NCBI GenBank assembly: GCA_951394045.1
Contig: OX595996.1
Location: 1,736,001-1,800,000, forward strand
Direction: 5' to 3'
DNA: 64,000 nucleotides
Source: Nitzschia sp. DOCU1
Lineage: Eukaryota; Bacillariophyta; Bacillariophyceae; Bacillariales; Bacillariaceae
Below are positions 7,569-46,748 of the stretch, piece after piece (position 1 is the stretch's first letter; every line of letters begins with the position of its first letter). The position numbers and the translations under genes were made by a program. Under the pieces are notes generated by a model. That model did no database searches and had not been told where the DNA came from. It saw nothing but the letters and a program-made list of their open reading frames with translations.

Positions 7569-9740
7569 GAAGGCGGTCGAACGGTAGCACCTACGCTGGT
7601 AGGTACCGCCGCTTGCAGACCGCCCACTCAACATACACGCACTAACTCCACGAACACAGCTATCATTAGTAGCTATGTAAATGAACTAGGTGAGTATGTT
7701 GATCGGGCTACACTATTGTATACCGAACATGGCTGGCATCGGGCATGCAACGAAATGCGCGGCCGGTCGGACATTCAAAGTACGGTCAAGACGCTCCCCC
7801 ACCCGGCGGCTCCGCTGCTCGAAAGAATCCGACGAAACGGCGTACCCGTCACAGTACAGACGGCGCCGTGGAGTCTCGACACACTGGACTCCCGCTTACT
7901 ACGGGGGCCACATCGGTCCGCACTAGATCATACCGATTTCTTACGGGAAGAATTCACAGACTTCTGCAAAAAAGGTTTCTGGATGATTCTACCGTACAGG
8001 TTGGTCAAGAACGAACCGGGTCTACGGTTATCACCGCTTGGAGTCGTACCGCAACGAGAGCGGAGACCCCGCATCATAGTAGACTACAGTTACTACGGTC
8101 TCAACGACGAGACCCTTAAGCAGTCGCCACAAGAGGCAATGCAATTTGGAAAGGCACAAGAGCGACTGACCGATCACGTCGCGTTCGCTGACCCTGCCTT
8201 CGGCCCCGTGTTTGGCTACAAGATTGACATATCGGACGGTTTCTACCGTATACCGGTGGCTAACATGGGCTCTATCAAGTTGGGAGTGTTATTGCCCCCC
8301 GGCGTAATTGGAGATGAGCCTATGGTCGCGTTTCCCTTAACACTACCGATGGGATGGACCGAATCACCGCCTTGGTTCAGCTCTTTCACAGAAACAGCAT
8401 GCGATCTGGCAAATTCCGAATTACGAAACGGGAAACGCTACCCACCTCACCCATTGGAGTACCAAGCTGGAAAGGAGGACTTCCAAGCGAACGACGAGCT
8501 CGGTGAAGACGATTACCCCCAACGAAAGGTCTCCAGGTCGCACCGACCTCTGCTTCGACGGAGGCCGCTAGCTACAGTGGACGTTTTCGTGGACGATTTT
8601 TGCGGCGTAGGCCAGGACCACCCGAGCAACCCGATCCAAAATCAACGTCGTACGGTACTACATTGTATCGATAAATTGTTTAGGCCGAATGACGATCGGG
8701 ACCCTCCCTTTCGAAAGGAGCCGATCTCCCAGAGCAAGCTAGACAAGGGAGATGCGGCGACGCAAACAAAGAAGCGATTTTTGGGGTGGGATTTTGGGAC
8801 CAAATCCAAGACACTACAAAAGGCCGAGCACCGACGACAAAAGGCACTAGCCGCCATCGACGAAGCCATCCATTCCAAGCGAGTTAGTCACAAAAAATGG
8901 GACAGTCTCACTGGCCAACTCCAGAGCCTGGTCCCAGGTATGCCCGGAGCGCTTGGTCAATTTTCGCTCCTAAGAGCAGCACGACACAACGGCGACGACG
9001 CCCGAGTCCGAGTGACGGAACCGGTGAAGGAACAACTCCTAACCTTTCGAGACCTTCTCGTCGATCCTGAGCCCACGTTACTCGAAGAACTAGTCCCTGG
9101 AGTGCCAAAAGACATCGGCGCCAGCGACGCCGCCAAGACAGGTATGGGAGGCGTATGGTTCACCGCCGACGGGAAGGCCCTCTTGTGCAGACAACCCTTT
9201 CCAATCGCGGTTCAAAAACGTTTGGTATCTAGCAAAAAACCCCGAGGTACAATATCGATATCTGACCTGGAAACTGCCGCCACGATTGCGCACCAAGCCG
9301 TTCGTGCGCAAGAAAGCGATATCTATGGCGAGACGCTGCACAGCCTGGCAGACAATACTAATGCGGTTGTCTGGAGAGTCAAAGGCTCAACCACGACTAC
9401 AAAACCAGCTGCCTATTTGTTACGGCAAGCTGCTCTCCTAACTAGACAGCACCGAGCCGTCTTCACGTGGAACCACATCGCTGGAGACGATAATCGCATG
9501 GCCGACGATGCCAGCCGCCTATGGGGGTACGGTGACGATGCACTCCTAACCTATTTTAATTCTACCTACCCACAGGCGACCTCCTGGAAACTTTGCCCGG
9601 TCCCGAAAGAATGGAGCTCGAGGCTGATATCCGCCTTGTTGCAGAAGAGGTACAACGAGGCGTCACTACTTGACGTTCCCAGGCGCAGCGGACCCACTGG
9701 GAACAATGGACAGAATTTTGCGACCGGCACGGCCTCGACC
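7569..9740 (+). CDS. Ngaro-like element: reverse transcriptase/RNase H
   Basis: Open in the gag frame from directly after the gag TGA. Without readthrough the start is unclear; the first ATG is near 7755. RT motifs in order: motif A YKIDISDGFYRIPV (about 8218), motif B LPMGWTESPPWF (about 8345) and motif C VDVFVDDFCGVG (about 8578). A DIRS-type RNase H follows with SDAA, SDLE, LADNTNAV and the last acidic residues in MADDASR (about 9500). The frame stays open to 10244, but after about 9674 the reading passes to the recombinase in the -1 frame, so the overlapping tail is probably not functional. No classical slippery heptamer was seen. Confidence 0.82.
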
Positions 9741-10678
9741 ACATGCTGGCCAACAGAAATGACCCGGTCCCAATTCTCCAAATCTTCATGCGCCGTTTCC
9801 GAGACGGTAGAACGGCACCCTCTGGGCAGCCGGTCCGCGCTCGAACAGCGGAAGATGCCCTACGCCAGGTGGCACAGACGATGGCCACACTGGGGTCCCC
9901 GGACCCAAGGAAGAACACCGCGGGCCGCATCGACCACCGAATCACCCAACAACTCGCCTCCTGGAAGAAATTGGACCCACCATCGCGAAGAAAAAAGCCA
10001 GTTCCAAGAGCCGTCCTTGACGACCTCACAGACGCCGCATGGGCCTCACAACGCCTGCACCACCAAGTGGGCTCCGACCTGCTATGGATCGGCATCCACT
10101 GGCTGCTTCGGCCCAGCGAGTACCTCCGGACGACCCACAAGGACCAACGACCCTTTCGCCTCCGCGACGTCACATTCAAAATTCCAGGCGGGAGAACGAA
10201 GCCTGCAACCACCATTCCGCTGGACGAACTCCCACAGGCCGTAAAGGCCAACCTTCACTTCGAACTCCAAAAGAATGGAGTAATGGGAGAGGACATCTGG
10301 GCGTCCACAACAACTGACCCCAAACGTTGCCCAGTCCAAGCCCTGATCCGAAGAGTGCAACATTTGAGATCCAAAAATGCGGATGCCGACACCCCGTTGC
10401 ATCGTTTCTTTGATCCATCGGGCCGGGCCCGCTCGATCACCGACGCACAAATGACCGCCCTGCTCCGCATTTACGCGCAGGCCCGCAACCTCGACGTGGA
10501 CGTCTCCATTGGCGCCATCCGCGCTACTGCTGCCACCGCCCTACTAAACGCTCAAGTCGACGTCACCTTGATCAAACTAGTAGGTCGCTGGCGCTCTGAC
10601 GAAGTCATGCGCTACTTCCACACTCAAGCGGACACTACGGATCCACTTGCCCCTGCAATTCTCGCACACCTCCACTAA
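9674..10678 (+). CDS. Ngaro-like element: tyrosine recombinase
   Basis: Integrase of the lambda/Cre type, read one frame back from the RT. The frame opens after a TGA at 9671-9673; the first ATG is at 9743. The N-terminal SAM-like part starts HWEQWTEFCDRHG. The catalytic part shows the first Arg in WLLRPSEYLRT, the second Arg in GAIRATAATALL, GRW, and the nucleophile Tyr in RSDEVMRYFH. The usual H-x-x-R box reads G-x-x-R here, so one member of the R-H-R-Y set looks replaced. It would integrate the circular cDNA. Starting by -1 frameshift from the RT frame or at ATG 9743 are both possible. Confidence 0.82.
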   Translation, partial: RSQAQRTHWEQWTEFCDRHGLDHMLANRNDPVPILQIFMRRFRDGRTAPSGQPVRARTAEDALRQVAQTMATLGSPDPRKNTAGRIDHRITQQLASWKKLDPPSRRKKPVPRAVLDDLTDAAWASQRLHHQVGSDLLWIGIHWLLRPSEYLRTTHKDQRPFRLRDVTFKIPGGRTKPATTIPLDELPQAVKANLHFELQKNGVMGEDIWASTTTDPKRCPVQALIRRVQHLRSKNADADTPLHRFFDPSGRARSITDAQMTALLRIYAQARNLDVDVSIGAIRATAATALLNAQVDVTLIKLVGRWRSDEVMRYFHTQADTTDPLAPAILAHLH

Positions 10679-11235: not shown

Positions 11236-11793
11236 GTCGTTGTCTCGGCGTCGCTTTCCAGTTTGATAACGAGCGGTAGAGAGAGATACCATAGAATGAC
11301 ATCCCACCGAGGTGACGGCGACTGATCGCGCGCGCGCGCGACAGTTTAGAAGTTTGGAAGTGATAGAATTTTTTGCGTAACTTCTAAAAATTTGTAGGGA
11401 GCTCGGCCTTCCGTGTATGGTTCGGCACGGCATAGGGTAGAGTAAGAGTGAGGGAAATGTTTCTACCACGTGTAGGGTAACCACCATACAGAGGTCAATG
11501 TCGCTGCCACGTGGAGGCGTATTGGTGGTAGAAGGTGTGGCCGGCGAAGATGTTTAGGGTCGGTGGAAGCAGATTTCGTGTGGAGCTTCAACAGAACGAA
11601 GTGATTGGAGGAGAAAAATTCGAAGGTAATACAGGACGAATAATATATAAGTCGAAGGGCGTAAAAAAAGTGGTCGTTGCGCCAGAAGGAGGTGTTTGCA
11701 GCAAAATCCAAGATTTGCGAGTATTAACGCGCAAAGGTTGCGATAGGAAGAAGAAGTCAAAGATTTGTTGCAGCTTTGAAATTGAAAGAAACC
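11236..11793. other. Upstream region of the six-exon gene
   Basis: Contains a (CG)n run near 11327, the TAGAAGTTTGGAAG word also seen left of the Ngaro insertion, and GCGTAACTTCTAAAA, which resembles the terminal inverted repeat. Presumed promoter of the downstream gene. A 90-codon open frame here is not supported. Confidence 0.5.
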
Positions 11794-14346
11794 ATGCAGG
11801 ACCCTGATGAATTGTTGAAGCAGTTTTTCGAAGGGAATGATGCGATCCCGGAGGAGAAGTCAATGGAGGATGCAATGAGCGACAAGGCGGAAAATTTGCT
11901 AAAGGAAGCGTATGACAGGGCGCGCAAGTATGATTTCCTGGCCGACGTGGCTGTGAAAAAGGGAGTACCATGTCTGCACGAGGAGGAAATGGCAAAAGCG
12001 ACGAAGTATGAGGCGCTTATTAAAGCGGTAAAGAAAGTGCGTGAGGAATCTTCGGTTTCGGGCAGTTATCCCGTTGATTTTCCGGAGTATCAGGAGGATA
12101 AGCGGCGAATGCTGGAAGCTGTGCAGATGTTGAACACTTGGATGGTTGATATCCTGTACATGGTTGATGCTAGTTTGGGGCAAATCCAGAACTTCTGGTC
12201 GGCTATTGCGGTCTTTACAGGTAAGTAAATGAGGATTGATGCGGGAATAGTATGACAAATACTAATTCAGTGTTGAAGATTACCTCTTGAACGAGAATAA
12301 GAAGGCCAAAGTTAATTTTGCGCAGGACTTGATTGTGATGAAATTGTTGGTTAATTCGGTTAGAAATGATAACAAGAATGTGAGACTCGATCCAGATATG
12401 TCGTGCAAAGGAGTTTTTGGAGAGCTCTTCGAGTTTAATTCTGGATTGTTTCAAACACATGACGTGTGGAATGAGTTTGAGATCGCTTTGCCGAAGAATA
12501 CAAAGAAAGATACGTCCGGGGTGGAGGTTATGTTGTTTCTTTGGTACTTGGCGTATTCGAATGTGGTTGATACAAAGGCAGCGCTGGATAATCAGATGTA
12601 AGTAACCGATGGAGATGTATTTTGAGTCATGGAAAGGTTGCTAAACTTCTTGCAGTAAACCTGCATTTAAAATTCTTTCGAGCGAGGATGAATATTATCC
12701 CATGTTGAAACAGCTAGGGTTGGTGCTGGCATCGGCTTGCCCGGACCAAAGTCTGGTAGGAATCGTTGAGTTGCACAAAATTTGCAGTAATCAGGAGCAT
12801 TTTTTGAATTATAATCTGCAAGCGAAACGAGGAAAACATCGCAATGAAGGAAGTCCTCCAAAGCCGGAGCAACAGCGTGGCATTCAAACAGTATCGATCT
12901 TGTTGGTCCACTGTGCTTTGCTCCCGTTGATGAACCGGATCGAAAAGAAGAAATCTGATAAAGCTTTTTACGAGAATCCCAAGATCTTTTTCGTGCGTTT
13001 GCAGCTTTTGTCGAAGGGCAATGCCATCATGTCAAAGGTTGGGTATGACATTGCAGTTCGCAATTGGATGAAAGAATGTGACAAGGAGAAGACTCTTCGA
13101 GTTGATTCAAAAGCCCCTGCTGTCGTTGGAAAGGGAAAACACGGGATGTTGTCGGATGGACAAATGGTTTCGGAAATGAAGAACGGCATTTTGGAGTTGA
13201 AAGAGGTGGTGCAAGGTTCGATGGAGAAGGTTGAGAAAATCCCTACCGCATTGGGGACAATTTATGACGAATGGAAGGAAGTTCTCATTCGTATGTCGAA
13301 TAAAGTTGATTCTTTGACGGCATCTGTGGAGAAGTTGGATACGAAAGTTTCGTTGTTGGAGAAGGTCTTGGAAGCCAACGTCCCTAAGGAAAAGATGGAA
13401 AAGATTATGTTCATGTTGGAGTTTATTTTCCAAAAGTGAGTTTGATGTTGGAAGTGTCGAAGTACTGGAACTATCTAACATTTTGAATTTGTTCATAGCG
13501 AGGTGGTTGCTGCCTTTGAGGGCGATACAGTGAGATCCGAAAAAATTATGGCAAAGGTAATGGCAGGCGGTTTCCAAATTGGAGCGTTGAAGGAGGATGA
13601 AGAGTGCCAAAGTTTGGAAAAGGACAAAGGGATATTGAAGAAAGATAAGGAAACAGGGCGCTTCGAATTTTTGGAGGAAATGCCCACCCAAACTTCTGCA
13701 GTGATGAAAAACACAGAGGAGACCGTGGCAAAAGCACAGAAGGGTTCAACCTTTGTCAGTAAGTTGAGGGTGAACTGGGATATTGTGCGTAATTGTCAAC
13801 TAACCGTTTTACGAAATCGTCAGTCGGCAGTCCAACCAAGGAGACTTTTGCCGCGGTTGAGAATGTTGAGGAGAAACCCGTGGCAAAAGCGCAGAAGATG
13901 GATTCGAATGTTGCTTATTTGAAGCAGGGTGGAAGCTTTGTCAGTAAGTAGAACGGGAACTGTGATATTGTGTTTAATTGTCAACTAACCCTTTTACGAA
14001 ATCGTCAGTCGGCAGTGCAACGAAGAAGACTCTTGGGGCGGTTGACAATGTTGAGATGGAAGAAGGGAAAGCAAGCCCCAAGACCGCTGCTGCGAAGAAA
14101 CTGATGTATAAGGGCGGTGATAGTAGTCCAAGCGTTGAGTCCCTTGAAGACGATAGCGGTGATGATGAGGAAAAGGGTAGTGCCAAGGGATTCACTTTGA
14201 ATTTCAAGGCGAAGGACGGTGGAGTAGGTGATGAGGAAAAAAAAGCAGCTGTTGACAAGCCGAAAGTTGATGTTGGGGAAAAGAAAAGCCGCCCCATTCG
14301 CCCAGCTGCTGGAAAGCAGACCAAAAAGAGGCGTCGAATTGCCTAA
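11794..14346 (+). CDS. Six-exon coiled-coil protein of unknown function
   Basis: Proposed exons: 11794-12220, 12279-12597, 12656-13435, 13499-13758, 13824-13943 and 14009-14346. All five introns are GT-AG and 58-65 bp long. The spliced length is 2,244 nt, exactly 748 codons, which supports the model (747 residues). The N-terminal half is helical (for example VQMLNTWMVDILYMVDASL). The middle part has a long coiled coil (NKVDSLTASVEKLDTKVSLL). The C-terminus is Lys/Ser-rich and ends KKRRRIA, like a nuclear localisation signal. No known domain was recognised. Exons 5 and 6 with their upstream introns look like a tandem duplication. It lies in the same block as the Rep/Pif1 genes, so it may be element cargo. 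Confidence 0.75.
13759..14060 (+). repeat. Tandem intron-plus-exon duplication
   Basis: Intron 13759-13823 and intron 13944-14008 are both 65 bp and share most of their sequence, including TAATTGTCAACTAACC and TTTTACGAAATCGTCAG. The exons after them both start TCGGCAGT and continue with similar codons. The exon ends before them are also alike (TTTGTCA). A unit of about 185 bp was duplicated and then diverged. Confidence 0.8.
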
Positions 14347-14480
14347 AAATTCTATAATTATAATACTTTAGTGACTATTTGATGTTAAGAGTGTTTGCTA
14401 TTGTAGTAATAGAAAAGATGACACAATTTCCATAGAGGTTAAGGTTCCTAAGGGTAGTATCTAATGAGGAAATGTCGTTT

Positions 14481-15149
14481 CTACCAGCCCAAGCGTCGCG
14501 CAAAGTCAGTGACGTGTTCGTGCTTCCACATGGTCTCAGCAAGACCGGGATAACGTTCCTTGAACGCGTCGTTCCACTCCGCTTCATCGAAACAATGCTG
14601 AACGATGAAGTCGATGTCCGCATTCATGAGGAAATCGTCCATAGAGATGGGAGGATCAGCAGCGTAATCCGTTTTATCGACGACGTTGACGTCTTGAGGG
14701 GGATACTTAGAGAAACGGGAATCCATCACGAAACTGCGGAAAGCGTTGAGTCCAGCTTGCCTAGTCTCCGGGGTGGTTTCGTCGCTTCTGGGCTGACGAA
14801 GAAAAACTTTGCGAGCGTACTTTTCCCCTGGGTTAGTGAGTTCTCCATCGTTAGTGTTAGGGCGACGGCGGTTCAGAGTTCGAATGAAGTTGCATTCGTC
14901 GATAAGGGAATGACTTTCCTCGAACTCTTGTCGCAAATACTTCGCAAGTCCCGCAGTGTAGCCGTCTTCGTTGTCGGACTTTTCGTACAAATAGATCTCG
15001 AACGGAATATCTTCCGCAAAGCTGTAGCAAACAACACGCAAGTTAGATTTCTTCTGAGGGGTCAACAGAGGTTTCTTGGACTTCATAGGGCTTGCCCGTT
15101 TCACGGGCTCTTTGTCCTTGGCTTTACGCGGGGTCGCAGGCTTCGACAT
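14481..15149 (-). CDS. Orphan protein, basic N-terminus
   Basis: 222 residues without introns, ATG at 15149. The first 35 residues are Lys/Pro/Ser-rich (MSKPATPRKAKDKEPVKRAS), then a compact part follows with regular hydrophobic spacing: FAEDIPFEIYLYEK, YTAGLAKYLRQEFEESHSLI and a C-terminal helical end WKHEHVTDFARRLGW. No family was recognised. It resembles in general style the DNA-associated accessory proteins of large mobile elements, but that is only a guess from location. It is convergent with the six-exon gene (135 bp apart). Confidence 0.6.
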   Translation of the reverse strand: MSKPATPRKAKDKEPVKRASPMKSKKPLLTPQKKSNLRVVCYSFAEDIPFEIYLYEKSDNEDGYTAGLAKYLRQEFEESHSLIDECNFIRTLNRRRPNTNDGELTNPGEKYARKVFLRQPRSDETTPETRQAGLNAFRSFVMDSRFSKYPPQDVNVVDKTDYAADPPISMDDFLMNADIDFIVQHCFDEAEWNDAFKERYPGLAETMWKHEHVTDFARRLGW

Positions 15150-15608
15150 GATGAGTAGTTTTCAATTCAGGATAGAGCAAGAAATGTGTGATCTTGTGAA
15201 AATGGAAATGAAACCAGGGTAAGCACGTAAAGCGACAAGTCATGATTATCGCCAATGAAGCATTGCATACAAAGGTTGGTTGTGGTCGCTAAATTTACAA
15301 TAGGTAAGGTCAATAAACATTCCTGTGACGTATAGAGAATAATTGAATGTTGGCACTAACGTAGGATGTGATTGGATCAAAATTTGTACGTGAACCGTTG
15401 GGCGCGCAAAGTGTTTACGCGTAAAATAGTTAGTTACGCACGCGACGTCGCTAATACGAATAAAATTATTTTAGAAAGCGTAAAATGATATTATCGCTAA
15501 TTGGCGATTGTTGATATCGATATACTAGGCAGAGTATCAACGGGAACGGATTGTCGAAAAGTTCATTGTCACAAGTGAGAGTTGCACTTTTTGCGAAAAT
15601 TTACGAAG
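15150..15608. promoter_or_regulatory. Divergent intergenic region with shared motifs
   Basis: Lies between two divergently transcribed genes (15149 minus and 15609 plus). It holds TTACGCGTAA (15415-15424), GCGTAAAAT at 15419 and 15478, TCGCCAAT at 15249, and the near-palindrome TCGCTAATTGGCGA at 15494-15507. The same words recur in the other intergenic regions of the block. Confidence 0.5.
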
Positions 15609-16280
15609 ATGGACGTCAACCGAAATAACCACCCTGAATACTTTGACCGCAATAATGACCCCGACAACGTTGATTGGGAGGAGAGAATGGAAGAAGACGC
15701 TGAATTGATTTTGCACCGCTTTACACACCCGGTTTCTATGATTCGGTACCAATTGGTGGAACACCAATTACTTCGTCATGATATTTGGCTAAAAATGGTG
15801 AAAGCGACAGAGCATGAGAATATTCGAACTTTGCGCCAAGAAATTATTGAGCAGGGTTTGAACGAATGGTGGGAGTATCGTGCATTCGTCGATAACGAAC
15901 CTTTATTCGATTGGGACCGCCATCATTACGTCCTTAACAGATTCGAGAAAATGTTGATGAATGATTCAGAAAGACCCGTGACGCGTTCCACCATAAAATG
16001 GTTCCGCAAGCGCTCCATGGAGTTCGTGTTTCTCCACGTGGACCCGGATGGTACATGCCGATTCAACGATGGTGCTTATTGGGATTTCATTTGGGATCGT
16101 GAGGCGCAAGGTTGGGATGCGTTGGCGGCGTCATCAGAAGACCCTGCAATTAAAGAATGGTATCATGCTGATAGGTCGCGACGTTACAAAATTGCAATGC
16201 AAACTGAGATGGAAGGTGGTGATGCAGTGGAATATGACATGTCGTCAAGTAAAGACAGTCCCATTTCGCATTTGCTTTAG
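15609..16280 (+). CDS. Orphan acidic protein
   Basis: 223 residues from the ATG at 15609 (MDVNRNNHPEYFDRNN). It is rich in Glu, Asp, Trp and Arg, with blocks such as VDWEERMEEDAELILHRF, YRAFVDNEPLFDWDRHHYVL and TIKWFRKRSMEFVFLHVD. The regular alternation suggests a folded alpha/beta protein. The last 30 residues are low in order (SSSKDSPISHLL). No family was recognised. Intergenic motifs on both sides are shared with the Rep/Pif1 genes, so it is probably part of the same unit. Confidence 0.55.
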   Translation: MDVNRNNHPEYFDRNNDPDNVDWEERMEEDAELILHRFTHPVSMIRYQLVEHQLLRHDIWLKMVKATEHENIRTLRQEIIEQGLNEWWEYRAFVDNEPLFDWDRHHYVLNRFEKMLMNDSERPVTRSTIKWFRKRSMEFVFLHVDPDGTCRFNDGAYWDFIWDREAQGWDALAASSEDPAIKEWYHADRSRRYKIAMQTEMEGGDAVEYDMSSSKDSPISHLL

Positions 16281-16675
16281 AATCATTGATTCATGCAAGT
16301 TTGAAAGTTAAAGAATTGTATTAGTTGATAGAGTTGATGTGGTTGCATGCAGCAAAGAGATGGTCCAGCTCCTAATTGTATTTTACGCGGTTGGTAGCTG
16401 AGGGATAACTTTTGAGCTCCCACATCTGTGCGTAACGCGTAAAATTGCATGTTACGCCATTGGGTGCGTGCGTAACTCCGACGCTCGCTTACGCCATTGG
16501 GTGTGTGCGGGAAGGGAGGGGCTGCCGCACGGTACCCCACTGACGCGTTTGGTTACTGCGCGTCGTAAGTGTTTATCGCCGATTGGCGAAGGAAGCAGAA
16601 ATTAAGGTGATACAAATCGCCTTTGGTTCTAAGACATTAGCATAGACTTTCAGTGTCGATTGCATACAAACGAAA
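16281..16675. repeat. Intergenic segment duplicated downstream of the helicase
   Basis: Contains TTTTACGC, GCGTAAAA (16437) and two TTACGCCATTGGG copies, then a GGCTGCCGCACGG stretch. The same order of words occurs at about 25490-25760 (GCGTAAAA, TTTTACGCCATTTT, GGCAGCCGCACGA). TATCGCCGATTGGCGAA lies at 16574-16590. This suggests an old segmental copy of the DNA that follows the Pif1 gene. Confidence 0.55.
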
Positions 16676-17173
16676 ATGAATAGGAACAACAACGAAATGG
16701 ATGCAGCTGAGACAGACAACAAGTACCAACGAGCAATTGAAGTACTGGCTGCAACGACTGTCAAAGTATATTGGAATGCTGCAAATACATTTCATGACTG
16801 CAGCGCCTTGCAAGGTCTCGAAAAAGTTTTCGCTGATTGTTCTACTAGCAATACACGTTGCACAATGCTAATGAAGTCCTGTGCCGGTGGAGGAAAAGGT
16901 AAGTGTTGCGTTAGATTGGGTTGTAATAAGAAGTTTGCATTTCCTAACAAACTTGCGACAGCACGGCTTCTAGAATCCTTGGTGGTGTGTGCACAACGTT
17001 TAGTAGAGAGTATTGAATGTACCTGTTCATTGCACGAAGTTAAAGTCATAGCGGCGACAAGTGCAGCTGCAAGTGAGATTTCCGGAAAAGCAAAGCATAG
17101 GCTGCTCGAGTTTGTGGCAAATGCAAACGTTTCGAACGACGATGTTGACACTGGTTACTACACAATTGACTAA
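16676..17173 (+). pseudogene. Truncated, diverged Pif1-helicase paralog
   Basis: An intron (16899-16961, GT-AG, 63 bp) sits at the same place as in the complete helicase, inside the Walker A motif. Spliced, the product has about 144 residues. It aligns with the start of the Pif1-like gene: QRAIEVLAATTVKVYWNAAN against QRAFEVLAATYVKTFYDDAT, then ARLLESLVVCAQRL and TSAAASEISG. Walker A is altered: CAGGGKGK-type unspliced, GGGKA after splicing, so the Ser/Thr is lost. The frame stops (GYYTID then TAA) exactly where the intact gene has Walker B. It could not be an active helicase. A short expressed ATP-binding remnant is possible, because the frame is otherwise clean. Confidence 0.7.
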
Positions 17174-17248
17174 ATGTTATAGAATGTCTAAATGGTACAT
17201 AGGAAAGAATGGCAAAGTAACATAATGGTTAGTTTAGAGTCTGTGATG

Positions 17249-17638
17249 TTACGCACGTTTTTCCCTGATGCGGCGCACAAGCTGCATGTCCTTAGTCATC
17301 AACGTTACGCGTTTGGCATGGTTGGCACACTTGTTGGCTTCACGAAGCAGCTCCGTTAGATGATCCTCCGAAGCATATTGAAGAGCTAACATTGCTCTTG
17401 CTTGGAAACGCATTTCCTTTCCATGTTGATTGCGAGTTATATCTCGCACAACCCTCTGGAAGGCCAATTTAGGTATGAGCAGGTTCGTTGATCGTTGGTA
17501 ATGACGGATTTCCCGAAGTGCAATTGTTCCTGGTCTTACTCGACGACGTCGCAGAAGATTTTGATTCGTCCGTGAAAGGGTTCGGGGCAAAGGGTGCTGA
17601 GTGTCTCTGCGAGATGGAATTGGTTTGATCCTTGCCAT
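17249..17638 (-). CDS. Divergent histone H3-like protein
   Basis: 129 residues, no intron, ATG at 17638. The fold domain is clear: [20 protein letters not shown] (alpha-N), [11 protein letters not shown] (alpha-1), [18 protein letters not shown] (alpha-2) and [20 protein letters not shown] (loop 2 and alpha-3). Loop 1 ([11 protein letters not shown]) is one residue longer than in canonical H3; a longer loop 1 is a trait of CenH3/CENP-A. The tail begins ARIK, keeping the position of H3 K4, but then has no Lys at all and is Arg/Pro/Leu-rich, so the K9, K14, K18, K23, K27 and K36 equivalents are missing. It lies among mobile-element genes, head to head with the Rep gene. It may be a CenH3-like variant, a captured histone, or a virus/element histone. 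Confidence 0.82.
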
Positions 17639-17872
17639 AGTGAATATGTGCGTAATGGTAATACGTTGACGACGTTACCTGTGATTTGGCGATAGTGGTA
17701 GCGTGATTGACGGCGTAAAACTATCGCCAGTACTGTATTTGCGCAGGATTTTAGCGACGGAGCATTCGCCTACGTTCGCCAAAAAATTCGTAAGCGCAAA
17801 CACAAAGATGTAGTGCCAAACATTGGAGAAGGATTAAAAAGGCATAGTTGAACTAAACCGGTGTGTTAAACA
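17639..17872. promoter_or_regulatory. Shared promoter of H3-like and Rep genes
   Basis: 234 bp between two divergent starts. It contains TTTGGCGA (17684-17691), which resembles an E2F-type site, CTATCGCCAG, GCGTAAAA (17713-17720) and two further CGCC words near 17766-17780. These fit the motif set repeated across the block. S-phase control is a hypothesis only. Confidence 0.45.
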
Positions 17873-20800
17873 ATGGCGCAATACCCGTCGTATGAACAAG
17901 AAAAAGCATTAGTGCGAGACTTTGAAAATGCTATCCATTCTTGCGTATTCGTCGATATAATGGGTAATCGGCATCCTTTATGTTGTTCTGTTTGCGATAC
18001 AATGGCAACAGTGGAAAATAGATGCGAATTCATCCCAATAGAGCAGTTAGCGGCATACGCAAAACAATGTCGAATGCAACGGGAGAGGATAGCATCCGTT
18101 TATCCATCTCCATTAGTAAAGCATTATAAAGTGCAGAATTGTCCGACACTAGCACCGTATGTATTATCACCAAGAACAGTGATAAACGTTGAAGCGGCTA
18201 GTGTGGCTGTCTGTAAAAGTTGCCAAAAGCACTTTGAGAGTAACAGCGATAAACCACCGTCACATTGCTATCCCCCACCAGGAGCAATCATAGTGGCCTA
18301 CATGATTGGTGAACCTCCACCAGTTTTAACATGTTTGAACACAATCGAATTGGCACTTGTGAGTACAGCACGAACGTTCTGTCAGCGTTGGTTCTTTTTT
18401 GGGGGTTGCCATCAACATATTCAGGGATGGCATACAATATACGAAAATGATTCAGCGTCTATAGTTGGACACATTGCCAACCTAACTAATGCCGGATTGC
18501 AAGGACAACTGCTGGTGGTTCTCTGTGGTCCGTTTACAACGACTCAAAAGGCAGAGCTCATGCGGCAAACGTCCATCAATGCAAAAAAAGTTATACGTGC
18601 TTTCAAATGGCTTAAGAAACACAATCGTCTATACCATGGTATACAAATTCCCTCCATGGAAGAACTGCCTGTACCTCAGGTCATTGCGCACGACTGGTAA
18701 GTTGACATTGATGATGGCTGACACGGTTGTATTGGAGTTGGTTCTCACTTGAACAAAAGGGAGGAAGCAGTTGCTGGAGCGAACGAAACATTGGAGAACC
18801 GTTTGCAAATGACAATTGTTTTACCAAACACTCATGCACTTAAGGAAACCAATGGTGGATTTTCAACTCAAGATGATTTCCGCAAATTTGTAATGGAACG
18901 ATTTCGAAATGGAAAGTACAACGCTGTCATACATTCCCGTCCAAGTGCAAACATCCTAGTAGATCATAACGGACAAGGAATTGTACGAGCATTCCCGTTG
19001 TTATTCCCTTATGGGCACTCCAGATTACCCTGCGATCCGGCAGTAGACAAAGTTATCACTGCGTTTTCCCGAACTAAACGAATTCGTCGACCATTTACGA
19101 GGACGCTACAAACCGTTCTGCGTAAATGGTTGCAATTACGCATCCCCACATTTCAAACACCCTTGTTCAACTTGGTCGTGTTCAATGTTCTCATGAAACA
19201 GACTATTTACAAAAACGTGTGTCTGCGGGCGAACTTTACGCACTCATCTGGGAACACATTAGCACACGCAGTTGGAGGAATGACAATACAAGAGTTGCAA
19301 CGCGGAATTGCAGCTGTGCGTGCAGGTGATTCTTCCCAATACTCAACAAGGACGAATGCCCAGTTTTTGAACTCAATTCATGCTACTTGCAGTAAATTGC
19401 CGCATACAAACGAAGCTGCACGAGAGGCGCGAAGTCAATATTTTGCGTATCTCATCCATTTCGGACTTCCGGCAATTTTCCTTACCGTTACTCCTGACGA
19501 CGAACGCAACTATCGCATCACGCTTTACGCATTACCGCCGGATTCGCGCTTTCAATACGAGCCACCATCAGCAGCGGAAACAATGTCGGACGATCTTATT
19601 CTCAAAAGATTTCGAATGCGCCAACAGATACGAACCGAATATCCTGGGTTTTGTGCTGAAGAATATGACCGTATCATTACTGCTGTCATCGAACATCTTT
19701 TGCAGTGGAACTGCGAGAAAAAAGAGTCAAAAGGCATCGGGATATGTGGGAAATTGGAAGCTTGGTGTTTGGCAACAGAAGAGCAAGGGCGTAAAACATT
19801 GCATGGTCATTTTTTGTTATTTGTGCAGGGGTGGCCCGAACTTATGAAAAATGCCCAGGACATGCGTGTTGACAAAAAGACATGCAGTAAAGCACGAAAA
19901 ACCATCTTGGAGTTTTGCGACAGGATATGCAGTGCTCAGTTATTCCGGGAAGAGGATCTAGAGGATGGAATTTTCCAAACTTATCCCGTTTTTGCTCATG
20001 ATGAATGTTCTTCCCAACGAATGTACAAGCGGCGTCGCCGAGATGAAGCTGGAAACATGGTAGTACGTCACCGTCGTCAGAACGAGTACAAAATTGATCC
20101 TGTTGACAAGAAGACATTGCGTGCCATGCGTCACAAGCGCAAATGCCAAGAAATCGAAGGTCAACTTGCAACTTGTAAGAAATGTGGAGCAAAACTTAAG
20201 TTGGATGATGTGGTGACAAAAGCAGTGCAATATCTTATGCAATCGGATCATTACAGTTATCAAGATGACAACAAGAGATTGGATCATTACGTCTTCAACA
20301 ATCAAATGGACGTTGGATGGTGGGAGCGAAGTGACAATGACATTGCAAAACGAGGATTCATGAATAATGTCATCTCCAACATTCACCGATACCTTCATGC
20401 CAGAAGATGTTTTCTGAAAGGATGCGAATGTTGCTTCAACTTGCCTGAGCAACCCAACGATTCTAGCCGTCTTGTGACAAAAGGAACAAACGATGATTGG
20501 TGTGATTTGTATGGATGTCGCAATCCGCGGTGTTTGTTTATCTACGAACCTGCTCGACGTTTACAGGATGTATTCATGAATGTTCATTCTCCATTGTTGA
20601 CAACCTCCCTAGGTTACAATACAAATGTCAGGGCAGGGATCAATGGACCGGCAGTCTTCTACACTACTAGCTACAACGTCAAACCGACGCAAAAAGAAGA
20701 TAACGCCGATTTCAAACTCGTTTCTGACACAATGGCAAGGATGATTGAACAACGTTTGCAAGAAACGGAGAGTGACATTTCGCCACATGAAGAGGGATTC

Positions 20801-21484
20801 AGAAGAATGTTGGGAAGCATTTATTCCCATTGTCGCGCACATATATGTGCAGCCCCCATGGCACATTATTTGTCGATACGGGGGTCAAGGTTTCGTTTTT
20901 CCCATGAAACGGTGAACATTCCTGTTCATTCAGCAGAGTCTTGGATGTTGAAGAAAAAGACTGGTGGAGTTTTCCGACTTGTAGATGGCAAACTTGCATT
21001 CTATCTACGACCAATGCATTACATCTATCGTGGGGAAAGGTTTCACTACATGTCATTCTTCCAGTTTTTTCAACAAACGGAAGTTTTGTGTCTAAGTGTC
21101 GCAACAAGTGTTTCACACGAAGTATACGAATTTGATGAGGGCCATCCATTAAGCAGTACCCATGCAATCATTGAGCACCGTAAACCAAAGGTGGGAGTCA
21201 TTCCCTGGTCCTTTCTGACAAGTACCAATGAACTTGGTGGGTCGCTGTTGGATTCGACACCAGTGAACCCTGATTCGCAATACTACGAAAAGAGAGAAAC
21301 ATACTGCCGTCGGTTTCTTCTGTTGTTCAAACCATTTTGGAAATTTGAAGAACTTTTGGGAGAACATGCATCCTACCAAGAAGCATTTCGAGCTAACTTA
21401 TCCATCATCACGGATGAGGTCAAAAGAATTGCAAACCATATTCAAGACATTCACAATTCCCTACGAGTTCGATTACCTAGATGA
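17873..21484 (+). CDS. Helitron-type Rep protein (DUF6570 plus Helitron-like domain)
   Basis: Two exons, 17873-18696 and 18760-21484, joined across a 63-bp GT-AG intron so that TGG is restored at the splice. Exon 1 has Cys pairs (CCSVCDT, CKSCQKHF) and a region ending AFKWLKKHNRLYHGIQI that matches the DUF6570 domain found ahead of Helitron Rep domains. Exon 2 has FPLLFPYGHS, FLTVTPDD and the HUH-type pair in TLHGHFLLFV, followed by zinc-ribbon cysteines (CKKCGAKLKLDD, CECC). It would nick and join single-stranded DNA during rolling-circle transposition. The catalytic Tyr could not be assigned with confidence. The frame ends at 21484, overlapping the helicase frame by about 25 bases. Confidence 0.8.
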
Positions 21485-23506
21485 AACCACCTTGGAAGAA
21501 GAAGAAGAACCCACCATTATTACACGTGACGATGATTTTGATGCCGCGGCGAACGAAGCCCATCTGCGTAATGCAATCGCAGCGGAGAGTGATCTATTCG
21601 GAACATCGTATGGATTGAACAATGGAGCTTATCGCGAAGTTGCACCCAGTTTTGTCAGCAATGACGAAGTATCAAGTGCAATTATGATTTTCCCAGATGC
21701 GACGCAATATACGCCTTTACGCACAGTGATTGCTTATGCCCCGCCCCCCCAATCCGTCATCAGAAATACTACGGATGCTGATGATCCAAAACGACGATTT
21801 GTTTGTTCTGTGGCAACCCTAAACACGTTGGTATCGTCCACGGATGGAACTTCGTACGAAACAGTAAATCAACCAAAATACGCCACGGGATCGAAAGACT
21901 CCATTATTGCATGGGGCAGACGCGACAAACTAGATGAGAAGCAACAACGAGCATTTGAAGTGTTGGCTGCAACCTATGTCAAGACGTTTTACGATGATGC
22001 GACTGGTTTTGGTGATTTGCTTGCTTTGGAAGGGCTGAAGGAACTCATTGCTAGACGCGATAGAAGCAACGCACCTTTGGTCATGTTCATCACTGGTCCA
22101 GCTGGTGCCGGAAAATGTAAGTATTGTTTCACCGGATTGATTGGTTTGCGAAAAGAATGGATTCGTATACTAACGACTTTGCTATAGCCCGCATTCTTGA
22201 ATCCTTGTTGGCGTATGCAAAAGCTTTCAGTGCCAATATTGATCACCAATTCACGTCAGATACCATTCGTGTTAGCGCAATGACGGGTGCAGCAGCAAGT
22301 GAGATTCTGGGCGACACCACACATCGATTGTTTGGACTATGGAAAGATCGCGACATTACAAATGAGGATATTCAAAGAGCAGCGGATACCCGTCTTTACA
22401 TCATTGATGAGATTTCTTTTGCTCATATGGGAAATTTGGCTCGGATTTCAGAACGGTGCAAAGGAGAATCTCAATGCCAAGAATATCCTTATGGAAGGAT
22501 ACCAATTCTTTTTCTTGGGGACTTTTGTCAACTCGAAGGTTTCGGAGGAACACCAATTTACAAAGGACCGCCAAGTCCCATCTGGGAACTTGCATTGAAT
22601 GTGATGGTCGAACTGGATGGTACGCATCGCTACAAGGATGATCCAGAGCTTGGGGAAGCAATGGCACAAGCACGGGATGGTGACCCGACAAAACTAAGAG
22701 AAATCCTTGCGACCCGTGATATTGAGAACAACGACTTGGAGATTCCTCAAGATCTTACTGCTCGATATGCGGTTTACACCAATCGAAAAAGGTCGACGAT
22801 TAACGCAAACGTGTTTCGATGCTACTTGGAGAGGTTTCATTATGAAGACGAAGCCATGCCAATACCAAATGGCGCAATCATCGTTCGGAGTTCCGGAAAT
22901 TGGGGTGATTCCAAAATACAGCTTGATGCAAAAGCGCAACACTACCTTTGGGAAAATTGCTCCGATGCGCACGTCAAACAACAATCCTACAAAGTTGATT
23001 CGTTCCTTGGGTTGTTCCAAGGTTGCGAGTTGATGGTGAGCGACAACATTGATGTATCAAAAGGCATTGCCAATGGCACATGCTGCACGTTTGATCACAT
23101 CGTTTTGAAACCAGATGCACAATTGACACCAATGAAAGTACATGGACGTTGGGTCAATATGGTTGACATCAATGATGTGAATCTTATCAAACTGAAATAC
23201 AACGAAAAGCGTGATCTTCGATTGGATGACACTTTTGATCTTCTACCTGCCAACAAGAAATTGACAGTACAAATGCCCTTCGAAGGGCGCATCCTGAAAG
23301 CGCAAATGGATTTAAAACATGTTCCGGCGGTGCTAAACTACGCAACAACTGTGCATAAACTCCAGGGTAAATCGATGGACAGCTTGGTGATAATGGATTG
23401 GAGCCGTACCCGCAATTGGGCCTATGTGGTTCTTTCACGTGTACGAACGCGACACGGTTTGTTTCTGATGAAACCTATGCCAGAAGATATTTCATTTAGA
23501 GAGTGA
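21459..23506 (+). CDS. Pif1-like helicase, copy 1 (C-terminus lost)
   Basis: Begins without a good ATG: Rep stops at 21484 and the helicase continues in the +1 frame from about 21459 (YEFDYLDETTLEEEE), so a frameshift is needed to make the usual Rep-helicase fusion. Intron 22117-22187 (71 bp) lies inside Walker A; splicing gives GPAGAGKS. Other motifs: Walker B LYIIDEIS, LFLGDFCQLEGFGG (motif III), NYATTVHKLQGKS and YVVLSRVRTRHG (motifs V/VI). It ends ISFRE-stop, because the tandem duplication junction at 23498/23499 cuts off the last residues. It would unwind DNA 5' to 3' for the element. Confidence 0.75.
21585..23498 (+). repeat. Tandem duplication, unit 1 (1,914 bp)
   Basis: Repeated directly at 23499-25412. 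I found only three base differences by eye (one near 21815/23729 and two in the later helicase exon near 23002/24916 and 23062/24976), so identity is about 99.8%. Confidence 0.93.
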
Positions 23507-25412
23507 TCTATTCGGAACATCGTATGGATTGAACAATGGAGCTTATCGCGAAGTTGCACCCAGTTTTGTCAGCAATGACGAAGTATCAAGTGCAATTATG
23601 ATTTTCCCAGATGCGACGCAATATACGCCTTTACGCACAGTGATTGCTTATGCCCCGCCCCCCCAATCCGTCATCAGAAATACTACGGATGCTGATGATC
23701 CAAAACGACGATTTGTTTGTTCTGTGGCGACCCTAAACACGTTGGTATCGTCCACGGATGGAACTTCGTACGAAACAGTAAATCAACCAAAATACGCCAC
23801 GGGATCGAAAGACTCCATTATTGCATGGGGCAGACGCGACAAACTAGATGAGAAGCAACAACGAGCATTTGAAGTGTTGGCTGCAACCTATGTCAAGACG
23901 TTTTACGATGATGCGACTGGTTTTGGTGATTTGCTTGCTTTGGAAGGGCTGAAGGAACTCATTGCTAGACGCGATAGAAGCAACGCACCTTTGGTCATGT
24001 TCATCACTGGTCCAGCTGGTGCCGGAAAATGTAAGTATTGTTTCACCGGATTGATTGGTTTGCGAAAAGAATGGATTCGTATACTAACGACTTTGCTATA
24101 GCCCGCATTCTTGAATCCTTGTTGGCGTATGCAAAAGCTTTCAGTGCCAATATTGATCACCAATTCACGTCAGATACCATTCGTGTTAGCGCAATGACGG
24201 GTGCAGCAGCAAGTGAGATTCTGGGCGACACCACACATCGATTGTTTGGACTATGGAAAGATCGCGACATTACAAATGAGGATATTCAAAGAGCAGCGGA
24301 TACCCGTCTTTACATCATTGATGAGATTTCTTTTGCTCATATGGGAAATTTGGCTCGGATTTCAGAACGGTGCAAAGGAGAATCTCAATGCCAAGAATAT
24401 CCTTATGGAAGGATACCAATTCTTTTTCTTGGGGACTTTTGTCAACTCGAAGGTTTCGGAGGAACACCAATTTACAAAGGACCGCCAAGTCCCATCTGGG
24501 AACTTGCATTGAATGTGATGGTCGAACTGGATGGTACGCATCGCTACAAGGATGATCCAGAGCTTGGGGAAGCAATGGCACAAGCACGGGATGGTGACCC
24601 GACAAAACTAAGAGAAATCCTTGCGACCCGTGATATTGAGAACAACGACTTGGAGATTCCTCAAGATCTTACTGCTCGATATGCGGTTTACACCAATCGA
24701 AAAAGGTCGACGATTAACGCAAACGTGTTTCGATGCTACTTGGAGAGGTTTCATTATGAAGACGAAGCCATGCCAATACCAAATGGCGCAATCATCGTTC
24801 GGAGTTCCGGAAATTGGGGTGATTCCAAAATACAGCTTGATGCAAAAGCGCAACACTACCTTTGGGAAAATTGCTCCGATGCGCACGTCAAACAACAATC
24901 CTACAAAGTTGATCCGTTCCTTGGGTTGTTCCAAGGTTGCGAGTTGATGGTGAGCGACAACATTGATGTATCAAAATGCATTGCCAATGGCACATGCTGC
25001 ACGTTTGATCACATCGTTTTGAAACCAGATGCACAATTGACACCAATGAAAGTACATGGACGTTGGGTCAATATGGTTGACATCAATGATGTGAATCTTA
25101 TCAAACTGAAATACAACGAAAAGCGTGATCTTCGATTGGATGACACTTTTGATCTTCTACCTGCCAACAAGAAATTGACAGTACAAATGCCCTTCGAAGG
25201 GCGCATCCTGAAAGCGCAAATGGATTTAAAACATGTTCCGGCGGTGCTAAACTACGCAACAACTGTGCATAAACTCCAGGGTAAATCGATGGACAGCTTG
25301 GTGATAATGGATTGGAGCCGTACCCGCAATTGGGCCTATGTGGTTCTTTCACGTGTACGAACGCGACACGGTTTGTTTCTGATGAAACCTATGCCAGAAG
25401 ATATTTCATTTA
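23499..25412 (+). repeat. Tandem duplication, unit 2 (1,914 bp)
   Basis: Copy of unit 1. After 25412 the sequence continues into the true 3' end of the helicase gene (TCCCAGATCCTGATTAC), which unit 1 lacks. Confidence 0.93.
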
Positions 25413-25471
25413 TCCCAGATCCTGATTACTTGGCTATGATGGAGCGTTTGAGAAATAGATTGAATCATTGA
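23598..25471 (+). CDS. Pif1-like helicase, copy 2 (N-terminus lost)
   Basis: Exons 23598-24030 and 24102-25471, with the same 71-bp intron interrupting Walker A (GPAGAGKS after splicing). The frame is open upstream to the duplication junction, but the first ATG is at 23598. The acidic N-terminal part of copy 1 is missing. The C-terminus is complete (ISFIPDPDYLAMMERLRNRL). All helicase motifs are present. Two amino-acid changes against copy 1 are seen: KVDP for KVDS and SKCIANG for SKGIANG. Neither copy alone is the ancestral gene. Copy 2 has no obvious promoter, unless the end of copy 1 supplies one. Confidence 0.75.
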
Positions 25472-26038
25472 GTAATGACAAATTTAAGCATTATAGCATA
25501 TTCGTGATAGTTGATCTGGTTGATGTTTCATGGTAGGTGTCGCATGGTCTCGTATAAGCTACCACTCCGTGGGTCAGGGTAATGCCACAAAGCGATGTAT
25601 GAGCTAAGATCCGCCCGGTAGCTCGGGAGCAAGGCGCAATGTGTGTAATGCGTAAAACTGTATTTTACGCCATTTTATGTGGGGTGAAGTGTGGGGCAGC
25701 CGCACGATAGCGTCGATGCGTAAAGGCATATGGTAGTTTACACAGATGTTTTACGCATATGCGTTAAATTGTGTCGTTTTGAATGGATGTCCAATGTGAC
25801 ACTCAAGACAAGATTTTCTCTATTCATCACAATTAACCGTCAAAATAGGCACTAATATTGACGAAAATACCGTTTGGCGGTGTTCGGCGACTTTCTATGA
25901 TTGAATTCCAATTCGCGCTGGCCGGTCAAAAATCGCTCTAAATAGGGCATATTTGAATTTTGAAAAGGACCCGGAAAACTTGGAAAAGAGCGGGAAAGAG
26001 CGAGAGGCCTCGGATATGGGCCTGTCGCAGTGCGATTT
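25472..26038. promoter_or_regulatory. 3' region of the helicase with hairpin and GCGTAAAA motifs
   Basis: No gene. It contains the inverted pair GCGTAAAA-CTGTA-TTTTACGC at 25650-25670, a further TTTTACGC at 25749 followed by CATATGCG, and a G/A-rich stretch near 25980-26010. It is partly paralogous to 16310-16560. It could hold the replication terminus of the element, but no CTRR end was confirmed. Confidence 0.45.
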
Positions 26039-46348: not shown

Positions 46349-46748
46349 TGACAAGAATCCGTAGGGGACTCTATGAAACGCGACGGCAAACGCGACGACA
46401 ATCAACAGATGTGGCGTCGCTTGCTCAACAATGCTGGCGATTCTCCTCGTTCGACGCAGGAGAACCAACAACAACTACAACTATGCCTCTCTACGCTAGA
46501 GGCGCTCGATATACTTAGCTTTTGGGGTGTTTGGGTGACAATACGTTCACGTAAGTGATTCTAAATATTGTGAGTTATCTACGTCTGCCGCCGACGGCGG
46601 TCACTCATCTTCGAGCATCATTCCTCGTTGCCATGCGCGCGTGCGCGCGTCGTCCGACCACTCGGAGCGAAAGACTAACTTGACTAACACACTACTGACG
46701 TCATGCGCGGACCGTCCGTCCGTCGCTCGTCTACCTTATTTTCTATCA
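46349..46748 (-). repeat. Copia 3' LTR (400 bp)
   Basis: TGACAAGAATCC to TTTTCTATCA on the plus strand. The polyprotein stop codon lies inside it. Confidence 0.95.

Follow-up and report, generated by a model that had tools for sequence, protein, structure and literature searches.

How does a histone H3 gene with an almost lysine-free tail come to lie beside the replication gene of a rolling-circle transposon, and to which of the two, transposon or host, does it belong? The question arises from a 64,000-nucleotide stretch of DNA (the window; G000:C12:1736001-1800000), for which a preliminary description had offered two possibilities: a transposon equipped with a nucleosome component of its own, or a host CenH3 trapped in a transposon. 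So far, transposons have been known to read chromatin through chromodomains and Tudor domains, and examples are known with a gene for a SET protein or with dead pieces of histone genes. If the first possibility is true, a genomic parasite would provide one of the nucleosome's own components, stripped of its silencing sites, and counts of histone variants in protists could include transposon genes. We searched the genome from which the window comes (52.08 Mb in 63 contigs). The window's own copy of the element is referred to below by its contig, C12, and the other copies by theirs.

A histone H3 with a remodelled tail

The gene is a single unbroken frame of 129 codons and is intronless, as had been described. 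That its fold domain is H3 is borne out by the Pfam match (Table 1), by a fold-wide match to solved H3 chains (E=6.8e-31) and by alignment, in which the C-terminal half keeps the residues that we take to make the H3-H4 and H3-H3 contacts. Single-sequence structure predictions were too poor for use, with a mean pLDDT of 46.6 for the H3 and 39.5 for the 222 aa ORF of the same element.

The tail's single lysine is K4 of the mature protein, and this holds in 6/6 copies of the element family. The canonical ARKS motifs at K9 and K27, of which the canonical H3 at locus L010 has two, number zero in all six copies; by alignment, arginine stands in place of K36, K37 and K56. It follows from the sequence that the element H3 would escape K9 and K27 marks. 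Relative to canonical H3 from this genome, loop 1 has one extra residue, again as described.

The element and its ends

DNA searches with the two sides of the element returned copies that start near 11390 and stop near 26015 (Table 1), and the H3 gene sits inside these bounds. What had been called a mobile-element block is thus a Helitron-like element of about 14.6 kb with sharp ends. The A before the left terminus may itself be part of the element. No target-site duplication was seen when the flanks of copies were compared by eye. Between its flanks, the window copy seemed by eye to have an inverted repeat; this was dropped, as the flanks differ from copy to copy.

Table 1. Features of the element copy in the window (window positions).
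Feature	Position	Strand	Observations
Whole Helitron-like element, 14,624 bp in the window copy	11391..26014		9 left and 10 right ends aligned, flanks unrelated
Left terminus, TTTGTAGGGAGCTCGGCCTTC...	11391..11412		A precedes in 9/9 copies
ORF, 245 aa	12702..13439	+	33-92% identity, partial matches in copies
Accessory ORF, 222 aa, basic N-terminus	14481..15149	-	In all six copies; one stop in C1
Accessory ORF, 223 aa	15609..16280	+	In all six copies; 17 genome matches
Degenerate helicase-like piece adjoining H3	16676..17173	+	37-42% identity to helicase
Histone H3 gene, 129 aa, K4 sole tail lysine, loop 1 +1 residue	17249..17638	-	Pfam Histone E=1.2e-36
Space between H3 and DUF6570 start codons, 234 bp	17639..17872		Aligned in six copies
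DUF6570 ORF	17873..18700	+	E=4.2e-12; one stop in C10 copy
HUH Rep ORF (Helitron_like_N)	18809..21484	+	E=1.6e-14
Pif1-like helicase, two overlapping frames	21366..23506	+	Six copies, same position
Second, near-identical copy of most of the helicase	23598..25471	+	In window copy only, among six
Right terminus, ...GGCCTCGGA	25990..26014		Next base T (6) or C (4), 10 copies

From left to right, the element holds small ORFs, the 222 aa ORF (-), the 223 aa ORF (+), the degenerate helicase piece (+) and H3 (-); to the right of H3 follow DUF6570 and the HUH Rep (+), and then the Pif1-like helicase (+). The H3 had been described as head to head with Rep at 234 bp. The spacing is right, but the facing ORF encodes DUF6570 and the HUH Rep ORF begins only at 18809. 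Since some relatives have DUF6570 and Helitron_like_N fused in a single protein (e.g. P0138 and P0139), the two ORFs are probably one Rep gene, of which the DUF6570 ORF would be the N-terminal part. From its position, the space between the H3 and DUF6570 start codons is likely to be a two-way promoter shared by H3 and Rep. As a separate observation on this space, TGGCGATA and a near-mirror, TTCGCCAA, are conserved in 6/6 copies; we presume a resemblance to E2F sites, which would imply expression in S phase.

An intron just past the Walker A motif probably separates the two frames of the Pif1-like helicase. For the second copy of the helicase, the Pfam matches (AAA_30, E=5.8e-5; PIF1, E=0.049) are both below Pfam's cut-off. 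The degenerate helicase piece is 53-79% identical among copies, with stops in 4/5 of the other copies' alignments, some of them possibly intronic, and is less conserved than the H3 next to it. The 223 aa ORF has no Pfam match, and the case for the 245 aa ORF as a gene is weak.

Both histidines of the HUH Rep are present in 40/40 aligned rows (39 of 95 relatives were included in the alignment), as is Y618, while Y622 is present in 39/40; we take Y618 and Y622 to be the Y2 pair. The HUH Rep, the Y2 pair, a Pif1-type helicase downstream of Rep and the absence of a target-site duplication identify the element as Helitron-like. Canonical Helitrons (Helitron1) start with TC, end with CTRR and insert between A and T. 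The element is not one of these: copies start with TTTG or TTGG, end with CTCGGA and are flanked by A on one side and T or C on the other. Helitron2 and Helentron elements have asymmetric or subterminal inverted repeats; in the window element, the best inverted match between left and right ends (150 bp ends, from one copy) is 9 bp with one mismatch. The open Rep frame of the window copy spans 920 codons, whereas those of the other five copies span 1025-1159 (that of C7 with one internal stop), and because of this shortening the window copy may be non-autonomous or Rep-defective.

Six copies, each linked to Rep

Genome-wide, we found 26 H3 loci: six of the element family (84-100% identity), five canonical or canonical-like, one CenH3-like (L024) and 14 other divergent genes. 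The six family H3s lie at the same place in the same element on contigs C12, C7, C10, C5, C6 and C1. There are likewise six full-length Reps of the family (92-100%), and each is accompanied by H3 (6/6). C13 has one partial family Rep with no H3 match, and element copies on C3, C8 and C9, which have no family Rep match, have no H3 match inside. The preliminary description had envisaged that the gene might turn out, in relatives, to be single-copy and without a linked Rep; within this genome the opposite is found. That it is an ordinary host H3 or CenH3 beside a transposon is hardly credible. Nothing except the H3 fold speaks for this explanation, which we rejected since the gene occupies the same place in the element on six dispersed contigs and a CenH3-like host gene exists elsewhere.

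Two related Rep families, with five full-length members at 52% and four at 49% identity, have H3 within 70 kb in 0/9 cases. The 5 kb upstream of the C4 copy, a member of the 52% family, contains DUF6570 but lacks H3 and both accessory ORFs (222 and 223 aa). Reps of the 49% family are adjoined by relatives of the 222 aa ORF (40-43%). Because the related Rep families are without H3, H3 looks like an addition in the family of the window element; the nine full-length Reps also argue that it is dispensable for transposition as such. In databases, one protein (P0001) among the 120 relatives of the H3 listed of 405 belongs to the element family. It differs by one residue from the C5 copy; its source is a different public assembly, which may represent the same species.

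Selection on the H3 gene

None of the six H3 frames has a stop (0/6). Stops do occur in other genes of the element: in Rep in C7, in DUF6570 in C10 and in the 222 aa ORF in C1. The copies form two subfamilies (C12, C7 and C10 versus C5, C6 and C1), between which the dN/dS of H3 is 0.15-0.22. The corresponding ranges are 0.11-0.13 (Rep), 0.11-0.15 (DUF6570), 0.13-0.16 (222 aa ORF) and 0.21-0.45 (223 aa ORF). Nine between-subfamily Fisher tests on H3 gave P values of 4e-10 to 6e-6, in comparisons that share one branch and are non-independent. The divergence of H3 between the subfamilies is under purifying selection. Within the first subfamily, constraint is seen for C12-C10 (P=0.007) and C7-C10 (P=0.003), and no constraint for C12-C7, with nine non-synonymous and two synonymous changes (P=0.79). 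Among C5, C6 and C1, the pairs gave P values of 0.05 to 1, with differences too few to show constraint.

These data bear on a passive origin, in which a host H3 was captured once and has been copied along unused, as Helitrons do with many gene fragments. Capture is known for Helitrons and Helentrons, and the histone fragments in a Culex element are dead, according to the accessible part of one study (PMC4067079). The C12-C7 pair would fit such a history, as would the five of the 14 other divergent H3s that are broken or truncated. Against it stand the six open frames and a dN/dS between subfamilies close to that of Rep, and we consider mere cargo unlikely. The first possibility of the preliminary description, a transposon with its own nucleosome component, is in our view supported at the level of sequence: inside defined ends, the H3 is very probably a selected gene of the Helitron-like element.

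Synonymous divergence differs along the element. Between subfamilies, dS is 0.70-0.82 for the 222 aa ORF, versus 0.31-0.34 for Rep, and for the 223 aa ORF it is 0.66-0.68 in comparisons of C6 with C5 and C1. The left part of the element (14481-16280) seems to be a mosaic.

Relation to CenH3

The longer loop 1 had been read as a sign of CenH3. This sign does not discriminate here: the three canonical-type rows of our alignment lack the extra residue and almost every divergent H3 of this genome has it, the exception among those aligned being L008, with two extra residues. CenH3 usually has W in place of F84 of H3, as does Arabidopsis CENH3. All six element H3s keep F at this position, and L024 (G000:C6:3437072-3437338) has W. 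Because of this W and of its neighbouring genes, which encode a semialdehyde dehydrogenase and a pirin, L024 is the better candidate and is likely to be the host CenH3.

We built an H3 tree of 27 rows, comprising 19 of the 26 H3 loci (identical and broken ones omitted), seven database proteins (from the 120 listed) and a single CENH3 sequence. In the best tree, the element-linked H3s all lie to the same side of one branch, supported at 61/93, which is not strong; the branch joining the window family and L007 has support of 35/0. At these supports, the element-linked H3s may go back to one origin or to several. The window H3 stands apart from CenH3 in the best tree, and a tree constrained to join them is not rejected (p-AU 0.29). 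Being multicopy, having F where L024 has W, and lying apart in the best tree (with that p-AU for the constrained grouping), the window H3 is probably not a host CenH3, and the second possibility of the preliminary description is not upheld.

A CenH3-like role within the element is a different matter. The H3 could conceivably mark element DNA or circles for tethering or segregation, comparable to a plasmid centromere, and the lengthened loop 1 and the p-AU value are compatible with this. The same loop length in nearly all divergent H3s, together with the F where L024 has W, argues against it, and we regard such a role as very unlikely.

A second set of H3 genes beside another Helitron-like gene

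At other divergent H3 loci we came upon a gene for a long, RepHel-like protein, which matches GIY-YIG and PIF1. Two of its four rows (L038 and L065) have an HIH motif with YLAKY after it, while L064 and L067 each miss one of these motifs. Judged by eye, this second type appears to be Helitron-type; Pfam gave no Helitron match on it. It was noticed beside divergent H3s at L037:529-9000, L039, L040, L041 and L038, on contigs C1, C12 and C17.

Eleven of the 14 divergent H3 loci lie at most 12 kb from a second-type gene or piece (0.2-10.5 kb). The remaining three are two truncated H3s at 16 and 22 kb and a pseudogene, L022, that is far from any. Among other histone matches, 0/17 are near a second-type gene (five canonical H3, one CenH3-like and 11 other), and none of the six window-family H3s is near one either, the nearest being at 23.6 kb. 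The count covers the histone matches above Pfam's cut-off, leaving out four of 41. The 12 kb limit was set after the distances had been seen and family copies are non-independent, so that the binomial figure of 7.5e-19 is no valid P value. Counted by lineage, the 11 near loci together with the two at 16-22 kb represent seven groups.

L039 and L037 have a common order of helicase, LRR protein, H3, ORF and ORF, with identities of 71, 28, 45, 66 and 74%, respectively. Given a shared gene order at such identities, the linkage of H3 at these two loci is old. Nine of the 14 divergent H3s are open. Close pairs in this set gave no significant constraint (L019-L023, P=0.11; L012-L015, P=0.22); in more distant pairs constraint is significant. 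Seven second-type Rep copies at 74-76% have no H3 near. As for kinship of the two Rep types, tblastn with the window element's ORFs found no match at the other H3 loci, and a profile comparison with hhalign gave a probability of 0.2, a weak test with only four second-type rows.

The tails of the two sets are alike in what they keep and in what they lack. In 14/14 tabulated element-linked H3s (six of the window family and eight of the second set), K4 is kept and ARKS or ARKT is absent. The table leaves out L022, which is without an N-terminus, and L016, L020, L023, L025 and L026. In several second-set tails, lysines near position 9 remain and the motif is gone. We suggest only tentatively, leaning somewhat against it ourselves, that two unrelated Helitron-like lineages carry H3s that have K4 and lack the motifs at K9 and K27, which may stem from a single ancient capture shared between them, and that most divergent H3s of this genome are element genes and not host variants.

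An ORF of 259 aa (L037:529-1308, +; relative at L040:1020-1799) shares a repeated block with an H3 gene of the second set and looked SET-like by eye. This reading was dropped, as it was by eye only and neither Pfam (up to E=10) nor PDB gave a match.

Possible function

What could a transposon gain from its own H3? We propose that the H3 would be expressed from the promoter probably shared with Rep, and that the resulting protein would pair with H4 and keep K4 while not being methylatable at K9 or K27. Nucleosomes with the element H3 would form on newly copied element DNA or around insertions and would resist the K9 and K27 silencing that diatoms place on transposable elements, and the element would remain expressed and mobile. 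We infer expression, entry into nucleosomes and the anti-silencing effect from the features of the gene and its tail. To the proposal as a whole, a selected element gene together with the anti-silencing mechanism, we assign a probability of roughly 0.55. In Phaeodactylum tricornutum, according to the parts of two studies available to us, H3K9me2, H3K9me3 and H3K27me3 are repressive and found mainly on transposable elements, and H3K4me2 is activating and found mainly on genes (PMC4504042; PMC10421102). By analogy, an H3 able to bear active and not silencing marks would fit this setting.

The element H3 might instead act host-wide, either as a poison or sponge of H3 chaperones or through an S-phase relaxation of host chromatin that lets the element insert or replicate. 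The H3-H4 and H3-H3 contact residues retained in the C-terminal half would suit such an action, as would the arginines at K36, K37 and K56. By itself, however, it leaves the retention of K4 in every tabulated row unexplained, and we think it unlikely. With the anti-silencing proposal, the element opens a test of an H3 with K4 and without K9 and K27 as a shield against heterochromatin.

Comparison with known systems

Virus-encoded histones are a case of a replicating parasite with its own histone gene, from which the window element differs in being an integrated rolling-circle transposon. In three scans of viral contigs with short exact peptide patterns, no relative of the window H3 or of either Rep was confirmed.

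Closer comparisons come from other rolling-circle elements. Helentron-Cq-32A of Culex quinquefasciatus likewise combines such an element with histone sequence, in eight copies (PMC4067079, in the part available). However, its histone sequences are pieces of H4 and H15 disrupted by premature stops, frame shifts and indels (PMC4067079, same part), whereas the window element has a whole open H3, purifying selection between subfamilies and a remodelled tail. The proto-Helentron of Phytophthora infestans resembles the window element in being about 14 kb long, in belonging to a stramenopile, in its TT start, in inserting after A and in having no target-site duplication (PMC4067079, same part). Accessory genes are present in both, in the proto-Helentron including one with a histone-methyltransferase-like SET domain (PMC4067079, as excerpted). 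The proto-Helentron ends in CTAG, unlike the right terminus of the window element (...GGCCTCGGA), and the excerpt of that source reports no histone gene in it (PMC4067079). Fusarium Helitron2/Helentron elements, too, have Rep and helicase, non-canonical ends without CTRR and, for Helitron2, T or C after insertions, the same as in the window element (PMC5148889, in the sections accessible). No histone is reported for them in those sections (PMC5148889), and in the window element no asymmetric terminal inverted repeat was found between the ends of the one copy compared. In Ectocarpus, chromodomain and Tudor Gypsy elements are also mobile elements that use chromatin proteins, with the reader domains fused to Pol (PMC12477816, as far as its available text goes), whereas the histone of the window element is a separate gene.

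In the open-access literature, we did not find an intact histone under selection in a Helitron-like element, and histone sequence in such an element was found only in PMC4067079, of which a part was accessible. To that extent, an intact, selected H3 in a Helitron-like element appears to be new, while dead histone fragments and a SET gene were known already (PMC4067079, same part).

Setting of the element in the window

The window is rich in mobile elements. A polyprotein of 2042 aa at 46736-52864 is of Copia type (RVT_2, E=2.4e-28), and a frame at 54795-56294 matches RVT_1 below cut-off (E=8e-5). The stretch at 5409-10678 is a possible DIRS-like retroelement: frames that look gag-like and reverse transcriptase-like by eye precede an integrase frame, whose Phage_integrase match is weak (E=4e-4, below cut-off), and short split repeats lie around them. 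The window also contains a gelsolin gene, the nearest named relatives of which are from Cylindrotheca and Nitzschia, at 62%, so that the host is likely to be a pennate diatom of the Bacillariaceae; other matches are closer, at up to 79%.
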